This document shows, in pieces, positions 1 to 24,962 of a stretch of 64,000 nucleotides of DNA. The stretch is from IMG/VR virus record IMGVR_UViG_3300047560_001581, positions 1-64,000 of that record; one strand, 5' to 3'. The DNA is from a virus. Under the pieces are notes generated by a model, which saw only the letters and a program-made list of their open reading frames with translations, ran no database searches and was not told where the DNA came from. Within the stretch, counting starts at the first letter, position 1; each line of letters opens with the position of its first letter. Position numbers and translations under genes: made by a program.

Positions 1-817
1 CGTGATGTCCTGCGGGTGGGCAGTATATCTTATTGTTCTTAGTTACAATGTGGGTGAAGTACTTGCGGGTTGTATCAGTGATTCCAATACGCTCAGACGA
101 CCATTCATTATCCTTATTGGTTAATAGAAAGTCAAAGTCATCTACATATCCGTAGGGAATAGAGTATATTACATCGTTAGCTATAGCCATTGTCGTATAC
201 TTCATCGTAGAATACTCATAGCCCGGATAAAACTTACTGAAATCCCTTAATATATACGTATGGTCGTTGCAATTAAACTCTATAGCATAATTAAACGCTA
301 TGCTTCTATTCTCACTGCGCGGGCTAGCATAGATAATACCGTTTCTGATAACGCTTTGATGCCATTTCTTCTTATCGTTGACCGGTGTTTCCAATGTTAC
401 TGTAGAAACACTGTCATCGAGTAAATCTACAATCAAAAGCTGATCCAAAGGCTCTGTTTCTCCGTACGGTAACGCATATATCTTGTCATTGTATATGTGT
501 CCCATAACATATTTGCCTCTTGTTTTCATTCTGTCTTCTGGGAAGTCAACCTGTACGTATTTGTGCTCTTTTGTAGCTGTATCGTATATCAATACTCTGT
601 TTTCTCCGTAGGGTAGCCAGTATATCTTAGAACCCACTGTGATACCATACGTATATTTCTCTGTGGTTCCATTCTTATCTAACTGTATCTTATTAATCTC
701 ATATGTCTTGGGATTAATTACCAACATTAAATCTAATTCTTCTGTGAGTCCGTAGGGCGGGACATAGATTAGATTATCTTGTCCTACTGTAGGGTAGCTA
801 TATGCTTGTGGGGTCAT
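1..817 (-). CDS. PYG-repeat beta-propeller-like protein (3' end outside window)
   Basis: This is an open frame of at least 272 codons that starts with ATG at 817 and runs off the left edge without a stop, so the C-terminus is missing. The translation shows a recurring unit of about 45-60 residues in which a short strand of the form IYxxPYG follows a hydrophobic strand (VPPYG, WLPYG, ALPYG, SIPYG), the look of a Kelch- or NHL-like propeller. There is no signal peptide. Its ATG overlaps the stop of the upstream PLP-enzyme gene as ATGA, so the two are translationally coupled. The protein at 6340-7575 has a similar unit (VFFPYG). Function is unknown; a carbohydrate-binding or virion role is inference only. 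Confidence 0.7.
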   Translation of the reverse strand, partial: MTPQAYSYPTVGQDNLIYVPPYGLTEELDLMLVINPKTYEINKIQLDKNGTTEKYTYGITVGSKIYWLPYGENRVLIYDTATKEHKYVQVDFPEDRMKTRGKYVMGHIYNDKIYALPYGETEPLDQLLIVDLLDDSVSTVTLETPVNDKKKWHQSVIRNGIIYASPRSENRSIAFNYAIEFNCNDHTYILRDFSKFYPGYEYSTMKYTTMAIANDVIYSIPYGYVDDFDFLLTNKDNEWSSERIGITDTTRKYFTHIVTKNNKIYCPPAGHH

Positions 818-1734
818 TTAAATGTGCCTGTCTTATTATAATCGTATATTGCGTTGCGTAAGCCTATTCTATTACAGATACCTTCTCTATCATAGTGAAT
901 CCATTCTTCTCCCCCGAGCCCTAAATGAATAGTCTTAGAGGGCTTTAGATTATAGTGTTCGCAGGCTTTCAATTGAATGTCTCTGTATGCATTGGGAATA
1001 GTATCGGGACCAAAATTCTGCATCAAATTATACGCAATGTATGTATGAATGTGTATACCGTGATGCCATTCAGTTAATATCTCTAATGAACAGTCTCTAC
1101 CCGTACGCTTAGTGAATATCATGCCCGTACGCATATTCCCGCAGTTTAAACTCTTTGTCGGGCTAAACGCTACAGTGTCGATACAGGGTTGATTAAAGTC
1201 TAAGTGAATATCTAAGCAGGTTCCATAGAACGCACAGTCTACGAACACCGGGATATTTAATTCATTGCAGGTATTAATTAATTCATTCCATCGTGGGTGA
1301 ATATCTCCCGTAGCACTGAATGGGGCTGAGATTAATAGTGCGTCATTACGCTCTAGGGGCAAGTCATCTACTGCATTACATATATTATCACAGTCGCTTA
1401 TCTCGCGGGCATAACCATACTCACCCTTCAATACTCTTAATCTACGCTTTGTCTTTAATGTATATAGAACAAAGTCGTCCATAGCCTGCGTAGTTCCTAA
1501 GCTAACATGACGCTTGGGGAATGTCTCTAACCCAGTAACTGTATTCAGCTTACTAGATGTAATCCATTGCGGGTATAACTCTAAGAACTCGTCCTGTACG
1601 TCAACTTGCTTTCTATTAGTGATAACATCCTCAAACCAATTGCTATCTTTCAAATAGAATCGATATGGGTCGTGCATCACTGAGTTAGCAGGTTTAATCA
1701 GGTACTTGTCGTATAAGTGTTCGAATTCTTTCAT
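814..1734 (-). CDS. PLP-dependent aminotransferase-like enzyme (fold type I)
   Basis: The product is 306 residues if translation starts at the ATG at 1734. A longer frame opens at 1779, but it would cross the divergent promoter and overlap the opposite gene, so I reject it. Near residue 166 lies VFVDCAFYG, matching the Asp and Tyr that contact pyridoxal phosphate in class I/II aminotransferases. Near residue 194 lies FSPTKSLNCGNMRTG, matching the Schiff-base lysine followed by a downstream Arg. It is shorter than typical family members (about 350-400), mainly at the N-terminus. It stands divergent to the radical SAM gene with 28 bases between the starts, and is coupled to the next gene by ATGA. 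Substrate is unknown; amino-sugar or amino-acid chemistry is inferred. Confidence 0.72.
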   Translation of the reverse strand: MKEFEHLYDKYLIKPANSVMHDPYRFYLKDSNWFEDVITNRKQVDVQDEFLELYPQWITSSKLNTVTGLETFPKRHVSLGTTQAMDDFVLYTLKTKRRLRVLKGEYGYAREISDCDNICNAVDDLPLERNDALLISAPFSATGDIHPRWNELINTCNELNIPVFVDCAFYGTCLDIHLDFNQPCIDTVAFSPTKSLNCGNMRTGMIFTKRTGRDCSLEILTEWHHGIHIHTYIAYNLMQNFGPDTIPNAYRDIQLKACEHYNLKPSKTIHLGLGGEEWIHYDREGICNRIGLRNAIYDYNKTGTFK

Positions 1735-1740
1735 AGTGAA

Positions 1741-1759
1741 ATATTTATTGAATAAATAT
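1741..1759. promoter_or_regulatory. Palindromic divergent late promoter
   Basis: The sequence ATATTTATT-G-AATAAATAT is a perfect 19-base palindrome centred on 1750. It gives one AATAAATA box on each strand (1751-1758 plus, 1742-1749 minus), each 7 of 8 with the T4 late consensus TATAAATA. The plus ATG (1763) is 4 bases after its box and the minus ATG (1734) is 7 bases after its box, leaving no room for a Shine-Dalgarno leader. Confidence 0.6.
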
Positions 1760-1762
1760 CCG

Positions 1763-2935
1763 ATGACTAAAAAGTGCATTTTGCCATGGATTCATATGCT
1801 AGCAGACAGCGATGGGACCGTGAGGGCTTGCTGTAACACTGATAAGAATACAGAGGTTATGGGCAATATATTGACAGAGAGTCCTGTCACTGTATGGAAT
1901 AACGAGCATTATATTAAAATGCGTACTGAAATGATGAATGGTATCGAGCCATTAGCTTGCAAACCCTGCTATGATAGCGAACGCTTAGGGTTGTTCAGTA
2001 AGAGGCTAAGAGAGAATGAAGACTGGAAACGTTATGAGCATTTAATGAATAGCCCAGTCGCAGAGTTTAAAATCCGTCATTTGGACGTGCGCTTTGACAA
2101 CGTATGCAACTTCAAGTGCCGCTACTGTAATCCATGGTTAAGTCATTCATGGGCTAATGATTATAAGAAGTTGGGCTGGGAGATTAGAACCGTAGAAGCA
2201 ATTAATGTCAATGGTCCTGACTTATATAACGTAATCAAAGATAATTGCATAGATGGCTTAGAGAGTGTATTCTTCTGCGGGGGCGAACCCTTATTAATGG
2301 ATCAGCATTTAGAGTTATTACAGTTATTAGACAGTAAACAGATGTACGATACTAAGCTCCTTTATATCAGCAATTTAAGTAAATTAAAGTATAAGGGAGT
2401 AGACTATATTGAGTTGTGGAATAAGTTCAATGATGTGAACGTACATTTCAGCTTAGACTGTATAGGACCCAAGCTAGAGTATATACGATGCGGGGCTAAA
2501 TGGGCTGAGATAGAAAAGAATATCAAGACTGTATTTGAGCACAAAGAGAAGCTAAAGCCTAAGATAGGGATAACCGTGAGTATGTTTAATGCCACAGAAG
2601 TATTAGATACAGTGAAATACTTGACGGACACGGGGTATATTACATTAGAGGACATTGCGTTGCACGTGGTCAGACGCCCTGAAATATATAGCTGTCAGAT
2701 ACTACCCAAAGAGATTAAAGAGACTATTACACAGGATGTTAATAAGTTTCTAAGTGAGAATGACTTGCCCTTGTTCTTTAAGAGCCGTTACGAGTACTTT
2801 ATCAACTATATGAACGACAAGGACACGTATGAGCAACACAAGACTGAGTTCAAGGATATGACAAAGAAATTAGATGATATCAGGGCTGAAAACTTTAATG
2901 ATATTTTCCCAGAATTAAAGGGCTATTATGATTGA
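1763..2935 (+). CDS. Radical SAM protein with N-terminal twitch/SPASM-like cysteines
   Basis: The product is 390 residues from the ATG at 1763; a frame opening at 1706 would run through the promoter. The radical SAM motif CNFKCRYC has its Cys residues at about 115, 119 and 122, which would bind the 4Fe-4S cluster that cleaves S-adenosylmethionine. A GGEPLL motif follows. The N-terminus carries CILPWIHM, DGTVRACC (Cys 23-24) and CKPC (66-69), the pattern seen in twitch-domain radical SAM proteins where it binds an auxiliary cluster. Such proteins occur in other environmental phages, but the substrate is not known. It heads a plus-strand run and overlaps the following SGNH gene by 8 bases. A role in modifying a sugar, peptide or nucleotide is inference. 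Confidence 0.85.
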   Translation: MTKKCILPWIHMLADSDGTVRACCNTDKNTEVMGNILTESPVTVWNNEHYIKMRTEMMNGIEPLACKPCYDSERLGLFSKRLRENEDWKRYEHLMNSPVAEFKIRHLDVRFDNVCNFKCRYCNPWLSHSWANDYKKLGWEIRTVEAINVNGPDLYNVIKDNCIDGLESVFFCGGEPLLMDQHLELLQLLDSKQMYDTKLLYISNLSKLKYKGVDYIELWNKFNDVNVHFSLDCIGPKLEYIRCGAKWAEIEKNIKTVFEHKEKLKPKIGITVSMFNATEVLDTVKYLTDTGYITLEDIALHVVRRPEIYSCQILPKEIKETITQDVNKFLSENDLPLFFKSRYEYFINYMNDKDTYEQHKTEFKDMTKKLDDIRAENFNDIFPELKGYYD

Positions 2936-3545
2936 TATTAATTTCACTAAGCGAGAGGGTTATAATGTTAACAGTCTCGGATATAGGGCTGTAGAGTTTG
3001 ACACTGTAGACTGGGCTAATAGCTATATCATACAGGGGTGTTCAGCAGTGTTCGGGCTGGGTATACCTGAAGATGAATTGACTATCTCGGGGCAACTATC
3101 TAGAATGATGGATGAACCCGTTATCAATCTGGGTATCAGTGGGGCGGGGATGATGCTTCAACATTACAATCTATTAGAGATGCTAGAGAGTAATATCAAA
3201 CCCAAGGGCGTATTCATACTATATCCTAATATGGACAGATATCCTCTATATACTCAGCACGGGATATTGAACGTAGGGTCTTGGAATTGTGATACTCACT
3301 TTGCATGGATGGAAGACGGGAATAGTGAAGTACATAATCTATATGCTATGCGTAACTATAGAATGTTATTAGAATTAAATAATATCCCTCTATATGAAGT
3401 CAGTCATCATAAAAGAAATACATTCTGTAAGAGTTTATTCACTAACCATTATGACAAGTTCCTAGACTACGGAACTGATGGGCAACACTGGGGTCCGAAG
3501 ACTAGTAAAATCATTGCTAGTTTATTTTATAGCCAGCTTAAATAA
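2928..3545 (+). CDS. SGNH/GDSL-like hydrolase
   Basis: The product is 205 residues, starting inside the end of the radical SAM gene. Block I is GCSAVFGLG near residue 38, with GCS in place of GDS, which is usual in phage and polysaccharide-modifying members. NLGISGAG near residue 64 matches the oxyanion-hole Gly block, and the C-terminal DGQHWGP supplies the Asp-x-x-His pair. The family hydrolyses or transfers acyl esters, often acetyl groups on polysaccharides. No signal peptide is seen, so it acts in the cytoplasm or in the virion. Its 3' end overlaps the convergent kinase-like gene by 24 bases. The gene at 8759-9430 is a second, distant SGNH member. Confidence 0.72.
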   Translation: MIDINFTKREGYNVNSLGYRAVEFDTVDWANSYIIQGCSAVFGLGIPEDELTISGQLSRMMDEPVINLGISGAGMMLQHYNLLEMLESNIKPKGVFILYPNMDRYPLYTQHGILNVGSWNCDTHFAWMEDGNSEVHNLYAMRNYRMLLELNNIPLYEVSHHKRNTFCKSLFTNHYDKFLDYGTDGQHWGPKTSKIIASLFYSQLK

Positions 3546-3965
3546 ATCTCCGTAGGCTTCAATCATGTCTTGATTCAGCTTATCGTAGGCTTCATGTAGA
3601 GAATAGATACCCACGTTATCCCAGTCTATCATTACAAACCCATTATCAGTCTCTATGATATTACTGGGCGCCCAGTCTCCGTGAACATAGGGAAGAGTAG
3701 AATATAGCTGCGTGAGACAATAATCATAGATACGTTTAATGTTATACTCAGTAGCCTCTAGAGTATTACAGGGCGTCCCTTGAATAGGGTTTAAGTCTAT
3801 AAAACCACCCCCGATCTGATTAACGTATCCGGGCATCAATTCGTCTAGTATCTTCTTGTGCATAACGAACCATTCGTCCGTTCTGTCCAGATACTTGCGA
3901 TAGCAACCGTTATCTAACAGATAGGTTACTCGGTTCTTTGATATATTCTCTTTAATCTTCTTCAT
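3522..3965 (-). CDS. Phosphotransferase/kinase-like fragment (APH fold C-lobe)
   Basis: The product is only 147 residues. It contains YVHGDWAPSNII near residue 93, a good match to the catalytic loop HGDxxxxN of aminoglycoside phosphotransferase and choline-kinase-like proteins. FVMIDWDNVG near residue 110 provides the metal-binding Asp. The usual N-lobe with nucleotide-binding lysine and Gly-rich loop (about 100 residues) is missing, so it is either a minimal kinase or a remnant. The ATG at 3965 lies 13 bases from the opposite gene's ATG and 6 bases after a TCTAAATA box. It could phosphorylate a sugar or small alcohol, but activity is doubtful without the N-lobe. Confidence 0.6.
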   Translation of the reverse strand: MKKIKENISKNRVTYLLDNGCYRKYLDRTDEWFVMHKKILDELMPGYVNQIGGGFIDLNPIQGTPCNTLEATEYNIKRIYDYCLTQLYSTLPYVHGDWAPSNIIETDNGFVMIDWDNVGIYSLHEAYDKLNQDMIEAYGDLFKLAIK

Positions 3966-3979
3966 AATAAATATTTAGA
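3966..3979. promoter_or_regulatory. Divergent late promoter in a 13-base intergenic gap
   Basis: The whole gap between two divergent start codons is AATAAATATTTAG. It contains the palindrome TAAATATTTA (3968-3977), which gives AATAAATA on the plus strand (3966-3973, ATG 5 bases on) and TCTAAATA on the minus strand (3979-3972, ATG 6 bases on). Neither gene has space for a ribosome binding site, so both mRNAs are predicted to be leaderless. Confidence 0.55.
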
Positions 3980-4629
3980 TGTTAATGCCATATTTACAAA
4001 AATACGAGACTGTGGATCTAGGATGGAAGATAAAGCCATGGATTAAGATAGACAAGGAACGTATGTTATCTTGGTACAGTGACTTAGAACGTGAGTACGG
4101 GGACTGGAAGTTCTCATACGAGAAGCACAAGCATATGTGGAAGCGAGATCCCGCGGGTAATGGAGTCAATGGGCACATGTTTATGCCCGATACCAGCTGG
4201 TATACATTATGTCACAACAGTGATATTAAGGGTCCGTTGCCCCCTGAGCGCAGTATGAGTATTACAGAGTTACAGGATGTTGATGATAATAAATTAAACC
4301 CCCGTGAATGCTTTAAGGGTTACGGATTAGAAGTCATAGAGAACTTACCCATCCGCAGTAAGAGAGCATTAGTGAGTATAACAACACCCGGTACTAAACT
4401 AGCATTGCATCAGGATCAGCCCGATAAGATTAGATATCATATTACATTAAAGACTAACGATAAGTTTAAATGGGTTATTGACGGGGAAGATATTGATATA
4501 CCCTGCGATGGATGGATATATCTAGTTAATACAACATTGCCCCACTATATTATTAACAACGGTACGACAGACAGGGTTAGTATGTACGGGAAAGTATGGA
4601 CAGAGGAAGTACAGAATTTATGCATATAA
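3979..4629 (+). CDS. 2OG-Fe(II) oxygenase-like protein 1 (Asp/Asn hydroxylase-type cupin)
   Basis: The product is 216 residues; an ATG two codons in (3985) is an alternative start. The C-terminal half has LHQDQ (HxD iron pair), then IRYHITL, then LPHYIINNG (second His) and DRVSM. This order and spacing resemble aspartyl/asparaginyl beta-hydroxylase-type double-stranded beta-helix enzymes, which use Fe(II), oxygen and 2-oxoglutarate. The N-terminal 100 residues are not recognised. It is first of a plus-strand run with two similar proteins (4620-5195, 5604-6317). Substrate is unknown; sugars, lipids, proteins and nucleobases are all known for the superfamily. No SD is visible because the promoter box abuts the start. 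Confidence 0.62.
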   Translation: MLMPYLQKYETVDLGWKIKPWIKIDKERMLSWYSDLEREYGDWKFSYEKHKHMWKRDPAGNGVNGHMFMPDTSWYTLCHNSDIKGPLPPERSMSITELQDVDDNKLNPRECFKGYGLEVIENLPIRSKRALVSITTPGTKLALHQDQPDKIRYHITLKTNDKFKWVIDGEDIDIPCDGWIYLVNTTLPHYIINNGTTDRVSMYGKVWTEEVQNLCI

Positions 4630-5195
4630 TTCCCCTAGACGTTGAGTTTGACTTGAATGAGTTAATAGACTATTATAATACCCTAGAACGTGACTATCAG
4701 CATTTGAAATGGACATTCAAAGACGATGTTGAAGATGTTGATAGAGGGCATAAGCACGAAGGGTTATTTGGATGGGGTATTCAGAGTAACTTAAGTGACT
4801 TATCTATTCCCTGTCCCCCGTACGATATACACAAAGAACGTACCAAAGTATATAGAGACACTGAATTAGTATTTGGGTTTGCTAAGAAGATTATTGATTT
4901 CTTTCCGGGCGTCAGACAATTAGGAATAGCAGGGCACCCCCATGGTATTGAGATAATGCAACACGTAGATAATGACGAGTATTATAAGATTCACATACCC
5001 ATTATTACTAACAATCAAGCATATTTTATCTACGGGGAAGAGAAGTATGTCATGCAGCCGGGTAAGATGTATTTTGTAGAAACAGAAGAAATGCACGGTA
5101 CACGCAATGACGGAGAAACTAATAGAGTTCATATGCTGTTTAAATGCACTAGAGATACAATTGACGCAGTACGGAATATGAAGGGCAAGCTATGA
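4620..5195 (+). CDS. 2OG-Fe(II) oxygenase-like protein 2
   Basis: The product is 191 residues from the ATG at 4620, which overlaps the previous stop by 10 bases; an upstream ATG at 4596 is possible. Motifs are QHVDNDEYYKIHIPI (HxD then K-x-H-I-P), QPGKMYFVETEEMHGTRNDG (second iron His) and RVHMLF. The same order occurs in the third paralogue at 5604-6317 as HVDGERKKLHIPL, NPAIPHGTYNHG and RYHMI. I infer a cytoplasmic Fe(II)/2-oxoglutarate oxygenase. The next gene begins at an ATGA overlap at 5192, so the run is translationally coupled. Confidence 0.6.
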   Translation: MHIIPLDVEFDLNELIDYYNTLERDYQHLKWTFKDDVEDVDRGHKHEGLFGWGIQSNLSDLSIPCPPYDIHKERTKVYRDTELVFGFAKKIIDFFPGVRQLGIAGHPHGIEIMQHVDNDEYYKIHIPIITNNQAYFIYGEEKYVMQPGKMYFVETEEMHGTRNDGETNRVHMLFKCTRDTIDAVRNMKGKL

Positions 5196-5632
5196 ACGTA
5201 TACGGATATAATAGACAACGATTCATAGAGTTGGGCGTTAATGATGATAATGTCAACGAGAGTAAAGACTATTATGTGAGTATATTACCCACAGGGGGAC
5301 CGAAGGGTGTACCAATCTTTAATCAGCAACACACTAATGCTTATACTATTGTGTTTGATGATGTATTAGAATCGGGTAAGTTCTGGGGCAAAGATATCAA
5401 TAGATATTATGACGCTGTTGCTATTACTGAGGAACAAGCTAAAGATTTGCACTATTTTTTACTGTCTATTCCAGAAGATGCTAACGTGCATATTCATTGT
5501 GTATACGGGAAGAGTAGAACAGGGGCAGTCGCTAAGTATCTCAGAGACTATAGAAACGCAGTTGTCCATGACATTGAATTAGAATATGTGAATGAAAGAG
5601 TATATGAGTTATTACATAGAGAACATAACTGA
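5192..5632 (+). CDS. Dual-specificity/tyrosine phosphatase-like protein
   Basis: The product is 146 residues. VHIHCVYGKSRTGAVAKYL near residue 115 contains the CX5R loop of Cys-based phosphatases, with the nucleophile Cys, the phosphate-binding Arg and the following Thr. A candidate general acid Asp lies upstream in VFDDVL. The length fits a minimal phosphatase. It sits between two 2OG oxygenase-like genes, its start overlapping the previous stop as ATGA and its end overlapping the next gene. Many phages carry such small phosphatases, acting on phosphoproteins or on phosphosugars and nucleotides; the substrate here is unknown. Confidence 0.75.
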   Translation: MNVYGYNRQRFIELGVNDDNVNESKDYYVSILPTGGPKGVPIFNQQHTNAYTIVFDDVLESGKFWGKDINRYYDAVAITEEQAKDLHYFLLSIPEDANVHIHCVYGKSRTGAVAKYLRDYRNAVVHDIELEYVNERVYELLHREHN

Positions 5633-6317
5633 GATTGACCACGATTTTGTAATGAATGGGCAGTGGGATGTTATTAAGTTTAATCTTAAACTAAACCCGC
5701 AGAAGTTACAAGACTATCTGAATGAATTAAAGACTACCCATAAACAACAGGAATTTAACTTCAAAGAACACACTGATGTATTGAATGAGTATACTCACAA
5801 TAGAGTACAGAACGAGAATAGAGTTAGTAACTACGTAGGTGATGTTACGGGCTGGACATTAGTATGGCCGATTGAGCGTGACGACCCTATCCCTAGTCAA
5901 GTACATATTGACAAGAAACAGTTCCCAGAACTAGAGAAGTATAATCTATATCATGACGGGAAACTAATGAATAGATTCAATTACGGATATATGACTACAT
6001 TGATGGAACAGTTAACTATCAAGTCATTCCGTCAAACTATCGTCACAAAGCATCCAAAAGGGTTAGTCACTCTCACACACGTAGACGGGGAGCGCAAAAA
6101 GCTACATATTCCGCTACAAACTAACCCCAACGCTATCTTTCACTTTGGGGAGAACGGGGAAAGAGAATATCACTTCGAAGTGGGTAATATGTATCTAATT
6201 AACCCTGCAATACCCCATGGAACGTACAATCACGGGGATGACAGGTATCACATGATTTCCCGCATTGATTTTGACTATATGAACACTGTTTTATCAATGA
6301 GTGGAACTATTGACTAA
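5604..6317 (+). CDS. 2OG-Fe(II) oxygenase-like protein 3
   Basis: The product is 237 residues from the ATG at 5604; an in-frame ATG at 5592 is an alternative. The C-terminal domain has THVDGERKKLHIPL (HxD iron pair and a Lys-x-His-Ile-Pro strand), FEVGNMYLINPAIPHGTYNHG (second His) and RYHMIS (2-oxoglutarate-contacting Arg candidate). It is clearly related to 4620-5195 and more distantly to 3979-4629. It overlaps the phosphatase gene upstream and ends at a TAA that lies inside the ACTAAATA box serving the next gene. Substrate not known. Confidence 0.62.
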   Translation: MSYYIENITEIDHDFVMNGQWDVIKFNLKLNPQKLQDYLNELKTTHKQQEFNFKEHTDVLNEYTHNRVQNENRVSNYVGDVTGWTLVWPIERDDPIPSQVHIDKKQFPELEKYNLYHDGKLMNRFNYGYMTTLMEQLTIKSFRQTIVTKHPKGLVTLTHVDGERKKLHIPLQTNPNAIFHFGENGEREYHFEVGNMYLINPAIPHGTYNHGDDRYHMISRIDFDYMNTVLSMSGTID

Positions 6318-6320
6318 ATA
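6313..6320 (+). promoter_or_regulatory. Late-promoter-like box ACTAAATA
   Basis: ACTAAATA overlaps the TAA stop of the oxygenase gene (6315-6317). It is followed by TACTATTAGGAGC, with the AGGAG ribosome binding site, and the ATG at 6340. This box-plus-SD arrangement recurs at many fibre-gene borders further on. Confidence 0.5.
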
Positions 6321-6339
6321 TACTATTAGGAGCATTTTT

Positions 6340-7575
6340 ATGAATACCACATTCTTTTCACAGGTACTTGACGACCCATTATATATTGGGAACGGTGAGT
6401 ACGTATCAGTCGTAACGAGCGGCAAGGTTAATATCGTAGGGGAAGCCCGTGATATTAGCAAGGACGCAGCAGCCAAAGCAGGTCTATTGCGTGTCAATAC
6501 TAACACAGGCGAGTCTACTTTTATCAACTTTGCTAGCAAGGGAGAAGAAGGTGACCGTTATCGCGGCGCTGTAATCGTTGACAACAAAGTGTATGTAATG
6601 CGTACACAAGCAAATCACATTGACAGTATTGTACGTTTGGTCTGCGTTGACCTAGCTGACAATAGCGTTGAAATGATTCAGGAGAAAGCAATCAGCGTAT
6701 CTGGTTCTGTTACTCCAAAGACATTCTGCGGTCACTTTAACTTCGGGCGCCCTGTAGTAGCAGGCACATCAATTGTTTACCCACCATTGAATTCAGGTAT
6801 TGTTATTGTATATGACACTATCACACGTACATTCGTATCACATGATGTTCCAGATGATTTCAGTTCTATTTGGGTAGCGTTTGTTCCTGAACTAAATCAA
6901 GCTGTATTCTTCCCATATGGCGCAAGAACAAACAAGTTATTAGTCTTGGACTTGACTGCAAACACACATAAGTTTGTCGAAGCTCCTACAGAGAATAGCT
7001 TCTATTGTGCTTTCAGTCACAACGGTAAAGCGATCGGTGTTCCGCACATCATGGGTTCAAAGACTCAAATGTACTTCTGGGTATATGATGGTGAAACAGT
7101 TAAGTCTATCGAGTATCATCCTAGCGTTGGTAATGTAGATGGCTCTAACGGATTCAAATACGGTTCAATCGACAATGATGTATTCTATACACATACAAGC
7201 AGTGACAGAAGCCATGACTTAGTTAAGTTTGACTTGAAGAACAATGAAATCACTGTTGTTCCTAGCAACTTAGCATTGGGTTCTAAGCCAATTACAGTTA
7301 ACGGTAACACGTATTTGTTCCCAAGTATTCTAAACACACGTATGATGGATGCTCCACAAGGCGTTTACAAGTTAGTAAACGGTCAAATCGTTAAAGAGTT
7401 TGAACTACCTACAAACAACATTACGTACGGTCCTATCAATGAGAACGAAGGCAATGTATTGTTAGTTCCATATAAGTTTGACTTGGTTGACGGTAAGTTG
7501 TCTAGTCAATTGACAATCGTAGACTTAGCTAATTCATCTGCTAAGACTATGGATGTTATGTTAGAGTTAGAATAA
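6340..7575 (+). CDS. Beta-propeller-like repeat protein
   Basis: The product is 411 residues from the ATG at 6340, chosen because AGGAG lies 8 bases upstream; the frame is open back to 6301. Repeating units pair a solvent strand with a hydrophobic strand and a turn (TSIVYPPL, QAVFFPYGARTNKLLVLDL, DVFYTHTSSDRSHDLVKFDL, NVLLVPYKFDLVDGKLSSQLTIVDL), suggesting a six- or seven-bladed propeller. It resembles the partial protein at 1-817. There is no signal peptide or membrane segment. It has its own promoter and SD, unlike the preceding coupled genes, and its codon use looks more like the structural genes. Function unknown; a virion-bound binding protein is one possibility. Confidence 0.65.
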   Translation: MNTTFFSQVLDDPLYIGNGEYVSVVTSGKVNIVGEARDISKDAAAKAGLLRVNTNTGESTFINFASKGEEGDRYRGAVIVDNKVYVMRTQANHIDSIVRLVCVDLADNSVEMIQEKAISVSGSVTPKTFCGHFNFGRPVVAGTSIVYPPLNSGIVIVYDTITRTFVSHDVPDDFSSIWVAFVPELNQAVFFPYGARTNKLLVLDLTANTHKFVEAPTENSFYCAFSHNGKAIGVPHIMGSKTQMYFWVYDGETVKSIEYHPSVGNVDGSNGFKYGSIDNDVFYTHTSSDRSHDLVKFDLKNNEITVVPSNLALGSKPITVNGNTYLFPSILNTRMMDAPQGVYKLVNGQIVKEFELPTNNITYGPINENEGNVLLVPYKFDLVDGKLSSQLTIVDLANSSAKTMDVMLELE

Positions 7576-8146
7576 ACTCATCACGTTGACGCAAGTATTC
7601 GGGGACGTTAACTTTCCAGATACTTTGCTCAACACCATACAACATCATAGTGTATGGTTTTTCAAAGACGCCACGTTTCATTATGCGTGGCGCCATTGTT
7701 TTATCTAGTCTACTACTAGATCCTGCTTTCTTATTATCTACGTTAGTTGTAACATAGAACTCTGCATCGGGTTCTATACTCTGAATCAACATAATCTGCA
7801 TGTACATTAGATATGTAAAGTGTATTCCACTTCGGTAGATATCCATACTGAATTCAGGAGTGTATGTGGGTAGTTGTGCCCCTCTGAATAGACAACGATA
7901 TGCTTTGTCGTTTACTTCGGGGAACTTGTGTACGCCGGCTAGAGATACAATCTTATCCCCATCTAGTACAACATGAAACTTGCCGTAGGGCATCTGCATC
8001 TTGTCTAACTTGATTGCTTTAAAGTCTTTATTGTTTTCCCAGCCTAATTTACTGCATTCATCGCAGAATAGTTGTAAGCTAGGTAAATCTGTATCTAATA
8101 GTTCTCTTGCTATTAGATTATGACTTCCATGTACTCTTAGTTGCAT
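7556..8146 (-). CDS. GNAT-like acyltransferase, putative
   Basis: The product is 196 residues. HVVLDGDKIVSLAGVHKFPEV (about residues 57-77) looks like the paired central strands of a GNAT fold, followed by AYRCLFRGAQL. The clear acetyl-CoA pyrophosphate loop (Q/RxxGxG/A) is not obvious, so the assignment is tentative. It is last in a four-gene minus-strand operon, overlapping the adenylate-forming enzyme gene by 29 bases, and it ends convergently over the last 20 bases of the propeller gene. If the neighbour activates an acyl group, this could transfer it; that is inference. Confidence 0.45.
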   Translation of the reverse strand: MQLRVHGSHNLIARELLDTDLPSLQLFCDECSKLGWENNKDFKAIKLDKMQMPYGKFHVVLDGDKIVSLAGVHKFPEVNDKAYRCLFRGAQLPTYTPEFSMDIYRSGIHFTYLMYMQIMLIQSIEPDAEFYVTTNVDNKKAGSSSRLDKTMAPRIMKRGVFEKPYTMMLYGVEQSIWKVNVPEYLRQRDEFILTLT

Positions 8147-8762
8147 CTTTAAGTCTATGGCTATATGTTTGAGTTTCTAAGTTGAACACATCACCGGTAG
8201 ATTCTCCGTTAACATATAGTAACCCATCTTGGTCGAACCCTACTTGATAACCATAACTGTTGCGGAAGTCAAACTTAGTCCCGTTAGTTGCTACAAAGAC
8301 AGGGGGTGGGTTCTCTGTACTACCGTACCAGTTTTGTATTGTCTGCACTCCCTTTGCTCGTAACATACTAATCATATCTTCCGGTACATCTTGACTGCCC
8401 ATTATCAAATGTCGAACGCAACTCATATCCAATGTGTCGAAACCCTTAGTATGTGATATTAACTCAATCATCTTAGGAATCAATGCTATGACAGTAGGTC
8501 TATATTGATTGAATACTCTGATAAATGCGTACGGGTCAAAGTTCATTTGAATCAAAGTAGCACCTACTCTATTCGCAGGGCCTGCACTGATGACATGATA
8601 CCCAATTACGTTAAAGGGAATCACATTTAGAACGATATCGTCTTTAGTTAACCCTAATAGTTCTACAGAGATATCCTGTCTCTCATTAATAAACTCTCGG
8701 TCGTGGATAACTTCTTTAGCATCAGAAGTGGAGCCGGATGTGAATAGTATTAGTTTGCTCAT
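8118..8762 (-). CDS. Mini adenylate-forming (ANL superfamily) protein
   Basis: The product is 214 residues. It begins directly at the phosphate-binding A3 loop (LILFTSGSTSDAKEV, residues 4-18) and contains WYGSTENPP (A5-type, near residue 145) and STGDVFNL (A7-type, near residue 188). Full acyl-CoA synthetases and NRPS adenylation domains have about 500 residues; the N-terminal 150-200 and the mobile C-terminal domain with the catalytic Lys are absent. The ATG overlaps the upstream SGNH stop as ATGA and the frame is intact, so it appears to be an evolved short form rather than a broken gene. The expected reaction is ATP-dependent activation of a carboxylate to an acyl-adenylate; the missing lysine makes full activity uncertain. 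Confidence 0.75.
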   Translation of the reverse strand: MSKLILFTSGSTSDAKEVIHDREFINERQDISVELLGLTKDDIVLNVIPFNVIGYHVISAGPANRVGATLIQMNFDPYAFIRVFNQYRPTVIALIPKMIELISHTKGFDTLDMSCVRHLIMGSQDVPEDMISMLRAKGVQTIQNWYGSTENPPPVFVATNGTKFDFRNSYGYQVGFDQDGLLYVNGESTGDVFNLETQTYSHRLKDATKSTWKS

Positions 8763-9430
8763 AGATTCTTTGTTTTGATAAAGTTGTATAACATGTCTGC
8801 TAGCATCTCATGTCCCTTGTCATTCAAGTGATATCTGTCTGTTACAACGTCCATGTATGTAGATTCATCGTTAATAAACGACTGTGGCTCAGTGAATATA
8901 GTATTCTTATATTCATCTATGACATTGAAGTTGTTTAGATATCTAGAGTAATAGAACACCGTAGGGATTCTACGATAAGCTAGCATGTTTTGGAACATGA
9001 AGTTATGATAGTTAAACTGTTCCCATTCAAACTTCTCGGATAGAAAGTTCTCTTGGTACATCTTCATAAAGTCTTTTTCAATCTCATTGTTCTGCCAAGT
9101 GTGACTGTCCATCTTAAACTTCAAAACTGTTCCATTCTCATCGTAGTATTCACTTACGTCTGCATGGAACTCGTGCTTGTTTCTAGGGAGAGCACTCCAA
9201 AATTCTCTGCGCTCAGGGTTTGTATATTGCACGACTAGTAGGTCATTGCTAGTCAAGTTGCCGTTCATAATAGCGTTAGTAATGTGTCTCCACATTCTGT
9301 AATTAGAGCCGATACCTTTTGCTTTGTGGACGTACTCAAATCCTAGATTCTTTGCTAGATTGCTCCCGTAGTTTCTAGGGCTAGGAAGATTGTCGCTAAA
9401 GCTGCATCCAGCTACATATAGTTTTCTCAT
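8759..9430 (-). CDS. SGNH/GDSL-like hydrolase or acyltransferase
   Basis: The product is 223 residues. VAGCSFSD at residues 7-14 is block I with the nucleophile Ser in GCS. LLVVQYTNPERREFW near residue 64 matches the block III strand, and DRYHLNDKGHEML near residue 201 gives the Asp-x-x-His pair. It is second in the operon, starting at a TAATG overlap with the FkbM gene and ending at ATGA with the ANL gene. SGNH proteins next to polysaccharide-active enzymes often add or remove O-acyl groups. With an adenylate-forming enzyme and a GNAT-like protein beside it, an acyl transfer route is plausible. There is no signal peptide. Confidence 0.7.
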   Translation of the reverse strand: MRKLYVAGCSFSDNLPSPRNYGSNLAKNLGFEYVHKAKGIGSNYRMWRHITNAIMNGNLTSNDLLVVQYTNPERREFWSALPRNKHEFHADVSEYYDENGTVLKFKMDSHTWQNNEIEKDFMKMYQENFLSEKFEWEQFNYHNFMFQNMLAYRRIPTVFYYSRYLNNFNVIDEYKNTIFTEPQSFINDESTYMDVVTDRYHLNDKGHEMLADMLYNFIKTKNL

Positions 9431-10278
9431 TAGAACAATACCTTTAATCGTTTAAGACGTTGGAAACAAGCATTGAATGGCTCATAGTTTGTTACTTCAA
9501 TTAAATCATCTGGCTGTTTTAGTTCGTTGGGGACGCATAGAATGTTTGCTACTGTGCTAGCACCGAATGGGTTTTCTTCTGTTTGCTTATATGTTTCTGA
9601 GATAGGCTTTGTTCTACACGCCACCCAATACATTGTGTACATACGTTCTTCCATGAATTCATAACATTTTGTCCATACATCCCATTCCATTGCTTCAAAC
9701 ATAACTACAGGACGATATTTACTGATTGTTTTAGTGCAACCAGTTAATGTTTCTAGTTCATGCCCTTCTACGTCAATTTTGATAAGACTACAACGGTCTA
9801 GTTGAACGTTGTCAATGGAGATAGCGTTAACTTCTACTGCACCTGTATCGTCTTTATGAATGTCACCGTAGTTACCTGTGTTCGCAGGGTCAAAGTCTTT
9901 CATTTTGAATTTGAAGTTACGGTCACTTGCGGCAGCATTTACTAGCTGAATCTGCTCGATCCCCTTACTGTTGTAGCTAGCGACTGCAAAGTGTTTGGGG
10001 TTAGGTTCGAAACCCAAAACACTACATCCTACTTCTTTATATACACCAACTAAGTGATAGCCAATGTTTGTGCCGATATCTACATACCTAGAATTCTTAT
10101 CTAAGTAACGTTTCATTATCTCTACTTCCGCATGACAGTATTCACCGAACAGTTTGATGGCTTTGCTGATTACTTGGTCGTTCTTATATACAAGAAATTC
10201 ACCTACACGTGAATCAGTAAGTTCCAAACTAGGAAGTATGGAATCTAATGTTGCTTGCAATGTTTCTTCTGTTGACAT
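9430..10278 (-). CDS. FkbM-family SAM methyltransferase
   Basis: The product is 282 residues. SAM-binding motif I is YVDIGTNIGYH near residue 67, motif post-I is VLGFEPNP near residue 88, and the FkbM signature IKIDVEGHELETLTGC lies near residue 163. FkbM enzymes methylate hydroxyl groups on sugars and polyketides, and phages often place them with surface-glycan genes. It is the first gene of the operon running to 7556 and has an AAGG ribosome site 8-11 bases before the ATG. A weak GCTAAATT element lies upstream at about 10304-10311. Target unknown. Confidence 0.88.
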   Translation of the reverse strand: MSTEETLQATLDSILPSLELTDSRVGEFLVYKNDQVISKAIKLFGEYCHAEVEIMKRYLDKNSRYVDIGTNIGYHLVGVYKEVGCSVLGFEPNPKHFAVASYNSKGIEQIQLVNAAASDRNFKFKMKDFDPANTGNYGDIHKDDTGAVEVNAISIDNVQLDRCSLIKIDVEGHELETLTGCTKTISKYRPVVMFEAMEWDVWTKCYEFMEERMYTMYWVACRTKPISETYKQTEENPFGASTVANILCVPNELKQPDDLIEVTNYEPFNACFQRLKRLKVLF

Positions 10279-22536: not shown

Positions 22537-23718
22537 TTAAAATTTTAATGCTATTGTGAAGTTATACCCAGCTTGCACTCTTGACCAGTTTGTGTTTGTA
22601 CCTACTTGAGTTGGCGCTGACCTTACAGATGTGTCGCCCAAGCCTAACTGACCGTTATTATTGTTACCCCATGTCCACAATGTACCATCAGTTTTAATCG
22701 CGGCAGTAAACCCAATCGTACCATTCCCGCCAGCTGATACTTGTTTCCAATTAGTACCTCCAGCATAAGTTTGTACTGGACTTGAATAATATGTTACGGT
22801 GTTGGTTCCCAATTGACCCTGATCGTTCCATCCCCAAGTCCACAAAGTACCATCAGTTTTAATAGCGGCAGTGTGTCTATATCCACCTGACACTTGTTTC
22901 CAAGTAGTATCTGATCCTACTTTAGTAGGTGATGAGCGACTTGTATTGTCACCCAACCCCAATGTGCCATTAGAATTATCTCCCCACACCCACAACGTAC
23001 CATCTGTTTTTGTTGCTAAGAAACCCAAGACGTTAATTCCTGCTGATGCAACGGACCTCCATGTTGTTCCACCTGCGATAGTTTGTACCGGGCTAGACTT
23101 TGATGTAGTAGTATTATCACCTAGTGCACCGTTGTTTCCTCGACCCCAAGTCCACAATGTGCCATCAGTTTTAATAGCAGCAGTAGTTACACCGCCTGCA
23201 GTTGCAGTTCTCCAGTTGTTTCCACCTGCAACAGTTTGTATGGGACTAGAATAATATGTTCTAGTGTTGTTACCTAATTGGCCGTAAGCATTATTACCCC
23301 ATAACCACAATGTTCCGTCTGTTTTCAATCCAGCTGCTGACCTCGTAGTAATGCCGGTAAAAACATCTTTCCAGTTTGTTGTTGCTGATACTGTTTGACC
23401 TGGACTGGATCTATCAACTGTGCCGTTGTTTGCTAACATGCCGTCAGCACCTCTGCCCCAAGACCATAAGGTACCGTCATTTCGTATACCATATGCTGTT
23501 AATGAAGCTACCCCGATTTTCATCCAGTTAGTACCATACCCTACGTTTTGCACTGGACTTGATTTTGTACCAGTTGTATTGTCACCTACTTGGCCGAAGC
23601 TGTTATACCCCCATCCCCATAATGTAGTGCCGAGTATGTATTCTCTGCGAACAAAGAAATCATCAAAGTTATATCCAAAGTTAGAACCAGATTGTGATAT
23701 TTTATAATTAGTAGACAT
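22537..23718 (-). CDS. Seven-bladed RCC1-type propeller protein A
   Basis: The product is 393 residues. After a 29-residue N-terminus (FGYNFDDFFVRREYIL, resembling fibre attachment segments) there are seven units of about 50 residues, each with T-L-W-x-W-G followed by NxxGQLG-type turns and SSPVQ plus GGxxWxxV: GWGYNSFGQVG, SWGRGADGMLA, LWGNNAYGQLG, TWGRGNNGALG, VWGDNSNGTLG, TWGWNDQGQLG and TWGNNNNGQLG. This is the alpha-tubulin-suppressor/RCC1 repeat. Seven blades close a complete propeller. It has no enzyme motif. The position at the end of the fibre locus suggests a receptor-binding tip. It is joined to propeller B by TAATG. Confidence 0.88.
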   Translation of the reverse strand: MSTNYKISQSGSNFGYNFDDFFVRREYILGTTLWGWGYNSFGQVGDNTTGTKSSPVQNVGYGTNWMKIGVASLTAYGIRNDGTLWSWGRGADGMLANNGTVDRSSPGQTVSATTNWKDVFTGITTRSAAGLKTDGTLWLWGNNAYGQLGNNTRTYYSSPIQTVAGGNNWRTATAGGVTTAAIKTDGTLWTWGRGNNGALGDNTTTSKSSPVQTIAGGTTWRSVASAGINVLGFLATKTDGTLWVWGDNSNGTLGLGDNTSRSSPTKVGSDTTWKQVSGGYRHTAAIKTDGTLWTWGWNDQGQLGTNTVTYYSSPVQTYAGGTNWKQVSAGGNGTIGFTAAIKTDGTLWTWGNNNNGQLGLGDTSVRSAPTQVGTNTNWSRVQAGYNFTIALKF

Positions 23719-24962
23719 TAGAACGACCCCGTAACATCATCATTAATAAATGTGTTATCACATATTCCAACCATGAAACAATTCAATGAGCCACCGCCCA
23801 TGGCTATTGATTTCCATGTTTGTATACCACCTGAATTGAACGGTACCGTCTTCTGGTTTGATGAATAATCTCCGAATTCACCATATGTGTTTTTGCCCCA
23901 GCAGTATAACCACCCGTTAGTAGTAATACCCATCATGCTAATATCACCTGTTTGTGCTACGGTATACCACGTAGTCCATGCGCCCACTTGAGTAGGAGTT
24001 GAACGAGTAGTTAAATCACCTTGACCTAATTGATATCCTGCATTTTTGCCCCATGTCCATAGTGTACCGTCTGTTTTAATGCCTGCACTTGCTTGTAAGC
24101 CAGGTGCAATAGTTTTCCAGTTAGTACCGCCGCCGGCAATTTGTACTGGACTAGAATATTTTGTAGTATTGCCGGTACCTAATTGATAGTTTGTATTATC
24201 TCCCCAAACCCACAATTGGTTAGACGAGTTGATAGCCATTGACACATCGCCGCCGCCCATTGAAGTCGAGTAGACTTTTGTCCAAGTTGTCAATAAGCCA
24301 ATTTGCACCGGACTTGACTTACCAACTACAGTACCGTCACCGAGTTGACCGTTTGTGTTTAGCCCCCATGACCACATTGTACCGTTAGTCTTAATTGCCA
24401 GTGCATGTTGAGGGCCGCATGCTATCATTTTCCACGTAGTGCCTGCAGCAATAGTTTGTATCGGAGAAGATGTACCAGTTAAACTGTTATTACCAAGTTG
24501 TCCGGATGCACTGCTACCCCACATCCAAAGAGTACTATCAGCAGCTATACCGCCAGAGAACGATGCGCCGGCTGAAACTTGTCTCCATGTCGTTAATGCG
24601 CCAATTTGAATAGGACTTGAGTAAGAAGTAGTATTGCCACTACCTAAATGACCCACTGAGTTATATCCCCACCCCCACAATGTGCCATCTGTTTTGATAG
24701 CCATAACATGAGAAGATCCAGCTGCAACTTGTTTCCAGTTTGCGCCGCCTGCTACTGTCTGTACTGGGCTAGAATACTTAGTACCGTTAGTGTTGTTACC
24801 AAGCTGCCCGTTTGTATTATCGCCGGACAACCACAACCCTGCCATCTTATTGACGTTGTTCATTTCAGGATATCTATCCAAAATGAATTCTTTGGTAATC
24901 AATGACTTACCAATATCTACCCCGTTAACTTGAAAGCCTGTGAGTTGTACGCCTAGTGCCAT
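23718..24962 (-). CDS. Seven-bladed RCC1-type propeller protein B
   Basis: The product is 414 residues. The N-terminus (VNGVDIGKSLITKEFILDRY) is of the same kind as the short fibre-anchoring segments of neighbours. Seven repeats follow: LWLSGDNTNGQLG, WGWGYNSVGHLG, MWGSSASGQLG, SWGLNTNGQLG, VWGDNTNYQLG, TWGKNAGYQLG and CWGKNTYGEFG. Blade edges differ from protein A, while the core W-G and SSP-x-Q residues are kept, as expected if loops on one face vary for binding. It ends one base into the start of protein A and is preceded by the DUF4376-like gene. Confidence 0.88.
   Translation of the reverse strand: MALGVQLTGFQVNGVDIGKSLITKEFILDRYPEMNNVNKMAGLWLSGDNTNGQLGNNTNGTKYSSPVQTVAGGANWKQVAAGSSHVMAIKTDGTLWGWGYNSVGHLGSGNTTSYSSPIQIGALTTWRQVSAGASFSGGIAADSTLWMWGSSASGQLGNNSLTGTSSPIQTIAAGTTWKMIACGPQHALAIKTNGTMWSWGLNTNGQLGDGTVVGKSSPVQIGLLTTWTKVYSTSMGGGDVSMAINSSNQLWVWGDNTNYQLGTGNTTKYSSPVQIAGGGTNWKTIAPGLQASAGIKTDGTLWTWGKNAGYQLGQGDLTTRSTPTQVGAWTTWYTVAQTGDISMMGITTNGWLYCWGKNTYGEFGDYSSNQKTVPFNSGGIQTWKSIAMGGGSLNCFMVGICDNTFINDDVTGSF

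Follow-up and report, generated by a model that had tools for sequence, protein, structure and literature searches.

ANL enzymes such as 4-coumarate:CoA ligase, FadD13 and feruloyl-CoA synthetase are proteins of about 500 amino acids. Among phages, a cyanophage cluster of halogenase and 2-oxoglutarate (2OG)-dependent oxygenase genes is predicted, in the passage devoted to it, to make a secondary metabolite or to decorate the capsule (Iyer et al. 2021, PMC7824862), and the tryptophan halogenase gene prnA is placed in a cyanophage context (passage in PMC2984593). T4-type pelagimyophages and cyanomyophages are described as carrying a hypervariable host recognition cluster in their tail-fibre region (section in PMC7029224). 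In this study, we analyzed a window of 64,000 bases out of the 66,452-base virus record IMGVR_UViG_3300047560_001581 (IMG/VR), which also encodes a phage tail fibre, a PAAR protein and ribonucleotide reductase. Its central element is a pair of overlapping genes, one for a half-size, ANL-derived protein, hereafter mini-ANL, and one for a GNAT-fold putative acyltransferase. As far as the passages cited go, the gene islands that carry this pair share an amino-acid halogenase, 2OG/cupin hydroxylases and methyltransferases with the cyanophage cluster, and radical-SAM cassettes, surface-modification genes and the tail-fibre region with the host recognition cluster. The relevant passages on the cyanophage cluster (PMC7824862, PMC2984593) name no ANL ligase or ANL/GNAT pair; the halogenases of phage records are about 30% identical to the island halogenase, and the cyanophage records lack a mini-ANL match. 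The paper on the host recognition cluster stresses glycosyltransferases, and its text contains neither the term AMP-binding nor the term FkbM.

The pair lies at the downstream end of a four-gene stretch:

9430-10278, minus strand: FkbM-family methyltransferase, 282 amino acids, optional accessory
8759-9430, minus strand: SGNH/GDSL-like protein, 223 amino acids, optional accessory
8118-8762, minus strand: mini-ANL, an AMP-binding fragment that spans motif A3 through the A8 hinge, 214 amino acids
7556-8146, minus strand: GNAT-fold putative acyltransferase, 196 amino acids

The original prediction had placed four coupled open reading frames (ORFs) here and assigned them to FkbM, SGNH, ANL and GNAT; their positions are confirmed, all on one strand, and the assignments are supported, that of SGNH tentatively. 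Neighbouring genes overlap by 1 bp (FkbM/SGNH), 4 bp (SGNH/mini-ANL) and 29 bp (mini-ANL/GNAT), which suggests translational coupling. Scans of IMG/VR yielded 68 GNAT loci, which were not de-replicated, and 107 mini-ANL loci, 80 of which were retained and thinned to 55 non-redundant relatives (<90% identity), every one an IMG/VR viral contig. Neighbour counts given below refer to genes within 5 kb of the mini-ANL in these 55 relatives. The number of relatives and the median ratios of nonsynonymous to synonymous substitution rates (dN/dS; 0.13 for the mini-ANL, 0.17 for the GNAT) show that the ORFs are not due to chance, and both proteins are under purifying selection.

The mini-ANL matches the Pfam AMP-binding profile (PF00501, E 2.2e-18) over positions 167-346 of 384 only. 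AlphaFold (AF2) single-chain models were made from the window and viral relatives. That of the mini-ANL (predicted local distance difference test, pLDDT, 86.8; predicted template modelling score, pTM, 0.84) aligns with residues 182-446 of 4-coumarate:CoA ligase (5bst) over 207 of 214 residues (VIA Z 18.6, root-mean-square deviation, rmsd, 2.6 Å); from this alignment, the protein spans the A3 P-loop to the A8 hinge. Beyond the fold, it shares with ANL enzymes the residues of A3, A5, A7 and A8. The A3 P-loop (T-S-G-[S/T]-T-x-x-x-K) is present, with T8, S9, G10, T12 and K16 in 56/56 mini-ANLs. So is A5, the ANL motif II defined as Y-G-x-T-E (PMC3438747), in which N144, W145, Y146, G147, T149 and E150 are invariant in the same 56 sequences. 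In A7, T189 and D191 are found in 55/55 and G190 in 53/55, while the first-position Tyr is unconserved; the A7 Asp is a ligand of the ribose of adenosine triphosphate (ATP), and acetyl-CoA synthetase loses its activity when this Asp is changed (PMC3438747). The A8 Arg (R203) and the C-terminal T211, W212 and K213 are again invariant among the 56. Judged from the sequences, these invariant motif residues support nucleotide binding by the mini-ANL, and acyl-adenylate formation would be its putative activity.

The remainder of an ANL enzyme is missing, which leaves about half of the normal N-terminal domain. Compared to 4-coumarate:CoA ligase, the mini-ANL has no equivalents of residues 1-181 nor of anything past 446: N-terminal subdomain A, upstream of A3, is absent from the mini-ANL ORFs, as is the C-terminal domain with the A10 Lys, the ORF stopping at A8. 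In all 55 relatives the match starts at A3, and ORF size is uniform (210-225 amino acids), apart from a few longer ORFs that begin further upstream and one truncated at the edge of its contig. We rejected the possibility that the lost halves are encoded elsewhere in the phage, since neither was found in 13 phage records of up to 356 kb. In these, the mini-ANL is the sole PF00501 match, always within profile positions 157-346, and AMP-binding_C (PF13193) is present in 0/13, while 12/14 control genomes are positive. A decaying or truncated pseudogene was likewise rejected on the basis of the uniform size across 55 ORFs, the dN/dS of about 0.13 and the invariant motifs. Because its two defining domains were tested for and not found, the mini-ANL is an ANL-derived half enzyme and not a full member of the family; it has been seen in phage contigs only. 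A larger ANL protein of 468 amino acids (L084:6366-7772, plus strand; PF00501 profile 76-331) adjoins the mini-ANL in one island. A carrier protein was also considered as acyl acceptor and set aside, a carrier-protein domain being above threshold in only 1/13 of the phage records.

The C-terminal TWK stands where the GNAT gene overlaps, and could have been conserved merely through that overlap. This was rejected: TWK is kept in relatives L080, L084, L120, L133 and L134, where the GNAT does not overlap, and is thus a feature of the mini-ANL protein itself.

For the partner, none of Pfam, PHROG and NCBIfam gives a significant family match. A profile built from four GNAT sequences matches the solved GNAT 3t9y (PDB, E 7e-5), and the AF2 model (pLDDT 86.8, pTM 0.86) has the same fold as PA3270 (8gxj; VIA Z 13.2, 166 residues aligned, rmsd 3.4 Å), the GNAT domain of Streptomyces lividans Pat (4nxy; Z 12.3) and the sugar N-acyltransferase FdhC (5ktc; Z 11.0). 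Model and profile match together confirm the predicted GNAT fold. In contrast to these acyltransferases, most members lack the pyrophosphate loop of motif A, [QR]xxGx[GA]: it is present in 7/43 GNATs and missing in 36/43, including the window copy (QLPTYT), and a loop FRGAQLPGY, nearly invariant among the phage GNATs, stands in its place.

The two genes are inherited together. Of the 54 relatives that could be tested, 42 show an overlap, usually of 28 bp, between the GNAT gene and the end of the mini-ANL gene, and after clustering at 70% identity the pair overlaps in 21/26 clusters. Seen from the other side, an ANL-type gene lies within 2.3 kb of the GNAT in 68/68 loci. Protein distances of mini-ANL and GNAT correlate (Mantel r 0.48, 43 pairs, 0/2000 permutations). 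The neighbourhood counts thus bear out the predicted coupling of mini-ANL and GNAT, and this gene pair is the constant functional unit.

The two upstream genes behave differently. FkbM is well assigned by PF05050 (E 6.8e-18; 65.8 bits against a cut-off of 22.7, Pfam) and TIGR01444 (E 2.1e-22; 80.1 against 37.7, NCBIfam). The SGNH protein has only sub-threshold GDSL matches (Lipase_GDSL, E 0.066, under the Pfam cut-off), and its assignment therefore rests on motif residues: S10, G41, N71, D198 and H201 of the Ser, Gly, Asn and D-x-x-H blocks, kept in the two sequences from the window and relative L002. FkbM is present in 7/55 relatives, preceding the mini-ANL in several close ones, and the window-type SGNH in 1/55. 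That one is L002, in which the first three of the four genes follow the window order and whose contig ends inside the mini-ANL. Other SGNH-like types occur in about 17/55, commonly directly upstream of the mini-ANL, and in many relatives a tail-fibre gene takes the upstream position instead of FkbM/SGNH. From the counts for FkbM and SGNH versus those for the pair, it follows that the four genes form no unit and the two-gene core does; FkbM and SGNH are optional decorators of the pair. The original prediction had named independent occurrence in relatives as evidence against its pathway, and this was found for FkbM and SGNH but not for mini-ANL and GNAT. Its general idea, activation of an acid followed by transfer, holds up, while the methylation step does not, since an FkbM neighbour found in so few relatives makes methylation an optional step.

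How the pair might work is proposed tentatively, as a reading that we rate somewhat short of probable: the mini-ANL makes an acyl-adenylate, and the co-translated GNAT replaces the lost C-terminal domain and hands the acyl group to a target of the island without coenzyme A (CoA). The A3/A5/A7/A8 site that the mini-ANL has kept would bind ATP, and the enzyme would convert a carboxylic acid to its acyl-adenylate; because the C-terminal domain is absent, it would be unable to form the usual CoA thioester. The GNAT would instead dock on the mini-ANL, take the acyl-adenylate directly and use it to acylate an amine or hydroxyl. Candidate targets are a tail fibre or other surface protein, a glycan, or a small molecule also worked on by Asp/Asn hydroxylases, a tryptophan halogenase and radical-SAM enzymes. 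The two losses would fit together, as the mini-ANL is without the thioester-forming C-terminal domain and its partner is without the usual CoA loop. If extended to a CoA-free, carrier-free machine with which T4-type phages, jointly with hydroxylases and halogenases, alter either their own tail fibres or molecules of the host surface, the proposal becomes rather speculative, and we lean against this wider form.

Several points weigh against the proposed hand-over. With both the catalytic A10 Lys and the pocket-forming subdomain A missing, mini-ANL activity may be weak or lost. Loss of motif A in a GNAT is compatible with CoA binding, and the target is a guess from the gene neighbourhood. Moreover, 12/54 relatives have no adjoining GNAT. 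Eight of these belong to a single clade whose neighbours differ, in some cases including a 2OG-oxygenase-like gene. Also among the non-overlapping relatives, L135 carries a convergent GNAT and L084 one that lies 1.7 kb downstream of the mini-ANL, in four others a GNAT is weakly matched 3-8 kb off on the opposite strand, and in three the contig ends within 2.2 kb of the mini-ANL.

The absence of the N-terminal subdomain and of the A10 lysine would also suit a non-enzymatic mini-ANL that acts as a scaffold or nucleotide binder to regulate or position a GNAT using host acyl-CoA, and the mini-ANL is nearly always accompanied by another enzyme gene. A pure scaffold, however, would not need three ANL signature motifs, including the adenylation residues (PMC3438747), to stay unchanged across 56 sequences whose identity falls as low as about 39%, and we regard this explanation as unlikely.

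The structural matches of the GNAT raise another alternative, namely that it uses acetyl-CoA, as an ordinary acetyltransferase does, to acetylate a neighbour, for instance the C-terminal Lys of the mini-ANL, much as Pat regulates acyl-CoA synthetases. The model resembles the Pat GNAT domain in a second structure as well, 4u5y (Z 12.2), which was solved with the C-terminal domain of acetyl-CoA synthetase; Pat is an established lysine acetyltransferase of ANL enzymes (PMC4053389), and K213 of the mini-ANL is invariant. Yet the target of Pat is the active-site Lys of precisely the C-terminal domain that is missing here, the CoA-binding motif A is mostly missing from the GNAT, and a dedicated regulator for a single enzyme answers little evident phage need. 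We therefore consider such regulation improbable.

It is similarly doubtful that the island is a phage biosynthetic cluster for a diffusible small molecule, in which the pair provides the acyl or amide step. This is suggested by the neighbours, which include a tryptophan halogenase (27/55), Asp/Asn-hydroxylase-like genes (41/55), TauD, a KedN5-like B12 radical SAM protein, aminotransferases and a desaturase, and by the product predicted for the cyanophage cluster in the passage cited above. On the other hand, the scarcity of carrier proteins applies here as well, no polyketide synthase or nonribosomal peptide synthetase module was seen, and the tail-fibre gene beside 34/55 mini-ANLs also fits modification of the virion or a surface. 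At the level of the enzymes, a small-molecule role is compatible with the direct acyl hand-over that we favour.

A fixed four-gene route of acid activation, acyl transfer, trans-esterification by SGNH and methylation by FkbM, along the lines of the original prediction, agrees with the overlap of all four genes in the window, the shared order of three of them in L002 and the FkbM and SGNH-like genes ahead of some mini-ANLs, but is very improbable given the rarity of FkbM and window-type SGNH and the tail-fibre gene upstream in many relatives.

Phages carrying the pair are numerous uncultured phages from water and soil, and the unit often lies beside tail-fibre genes. Larger contigs with a mini-ANL reach 356 kb, and a T4-type portal gene was found in 5/6 large records tested. 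Among 50,697 annotated phage records there is no relative of the GNAT, and the mini-ANL gave weak matches to ordinary ANL proteins only. Peptide-pattern scans of 84,980 cellular genomes, using GNAT and ANL profiles, returned no relative, although these scans need near-exact short peptides and distant cellular relatives could escape them. Literature searches found no account of a mini-ANL/GNAT pair, and neither the minimal ANL enzyme nor its phage-only distribution appears to have been described earlier.

If the proposed hand-over is correct, the ANL fold can be reduced to about 215 residues with its nucleotide site intact, which bears on ANL evolution and on the design of minimal ligases. A GNAT fed by an acyl-adenylate and not by acyl-CoA would likewise be a new working mode for the GNAT superfamily. 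The pair occurs widely among uncultured phages, in many cases within tail-fibre regions, and offers a handle on the function of phage halogenase/hydroxylase islands.

The original prediction did not extend to this larger setting of tail-fibre, Asp/Asn-hydroxylase, tryptophan-halogenase and radical-SAM genes. In the window, the island continues on the other side of the GNAT with the following genes:

1706-2935, plus strand: twitch-domain radical SAM protein (NF033640, E 4.6e-102, above cut-off)
3979-4629, plus strand: Asp/Asn beta-hydroxylase-like protein (PF05118, E 3.6e-9)
4596-5195, plus strand: Asp/Asn beta-hydroxylase-like protein (PF05118, E 2.9e-8)
5192-5632, plus strand: dual-specificity/tyrosine-phosphatase-like protein (Y_phosphatase3, E 1.8e-4, just under cut-off), with relatives in other islands
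5592-6317, plus strand: weakly Asp/Asn beta-hydroxylase-like protein (PF05118, E 8.5e-4, under cut-off), with homologues in other islands
6301-7575, plus strand: protein convergent with the GNAT, without a family match above cut-off, possibly a beta-propeller as guessed by eye

The last of these has homologues in the same position in L010 and L012 and within 5 kb in 10/55 islands. A small RIO/APH-like kinase gene (3522-3965, minus strand; PF01163, E 2.5e-5, above cut-off) lies opposite the hydroxylase genes and has relatives in 13 islands. The window's own record contains hydroxylase-like genes and no halogenase.

Across the relatives, a common gene order is fibre, mini-ANL and GNAT, followed by convergent halogenase and hydroxylase genes. 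The representative halogenase matches PF04820 (E 2.5e-95), one representative fibre has an Mtd_N domain, and the count for Asp/Asn-hydroxylase-like genes includes small phosphatase-like genes that the single-linkage cluster took in. SGNH-like, TauD, radical-SAM and FkbM genes are the rarer neighbours. Fibre proteins as an obvious substrate were set aside, as their C-termini show no clear modification motif and the fibres are Trp-poor. The divergent branch represented by L077 (7627-11815, plus strand) retains the association in a different order: a single-strand operon that follows a fibre gene encodes a GNAT fusion of 413 amino acids with the GNAT in its C-terminal half, then a tryptophan-halogenase-like protein, a class IV aminotransferase and, last, a mini-ANL of 242 amino acids that is itself divergent.

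Other observations concern single islands or records. A gene of the KedN5-like B12 radical-SAM methyltransferase type (L010:6488-8428, minus strand, also in L011 and L012; E 7.3e-43, below cut-off) occurs with TauD upstream of the pair in all three relatives and with desaturase genes in L010. A protein of 491 amino acids without a Pfam match (L014:14895-16370, minus strand, and relatives) lies near the mini-ANL in 33/55 islands. Possible metabolic genes of L002 encode an isocitrate lyase (855-2060, plus strand; PF00463, E 5.5e-103) and an IscU/NifU_N protein (482-868, plus strand; E 7.1e-54). The ribonucleotide reductase large-subunit gene of L005 (positions 2-3203) is apparently split by an inserted element, either an intein or a homing element, whose ORF has no Pfam match. 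Finally, two adjoining proteins of the window (22537-24962, minus strand) match PHROGs of RCC1-like type (regulator of chromosome condensation).

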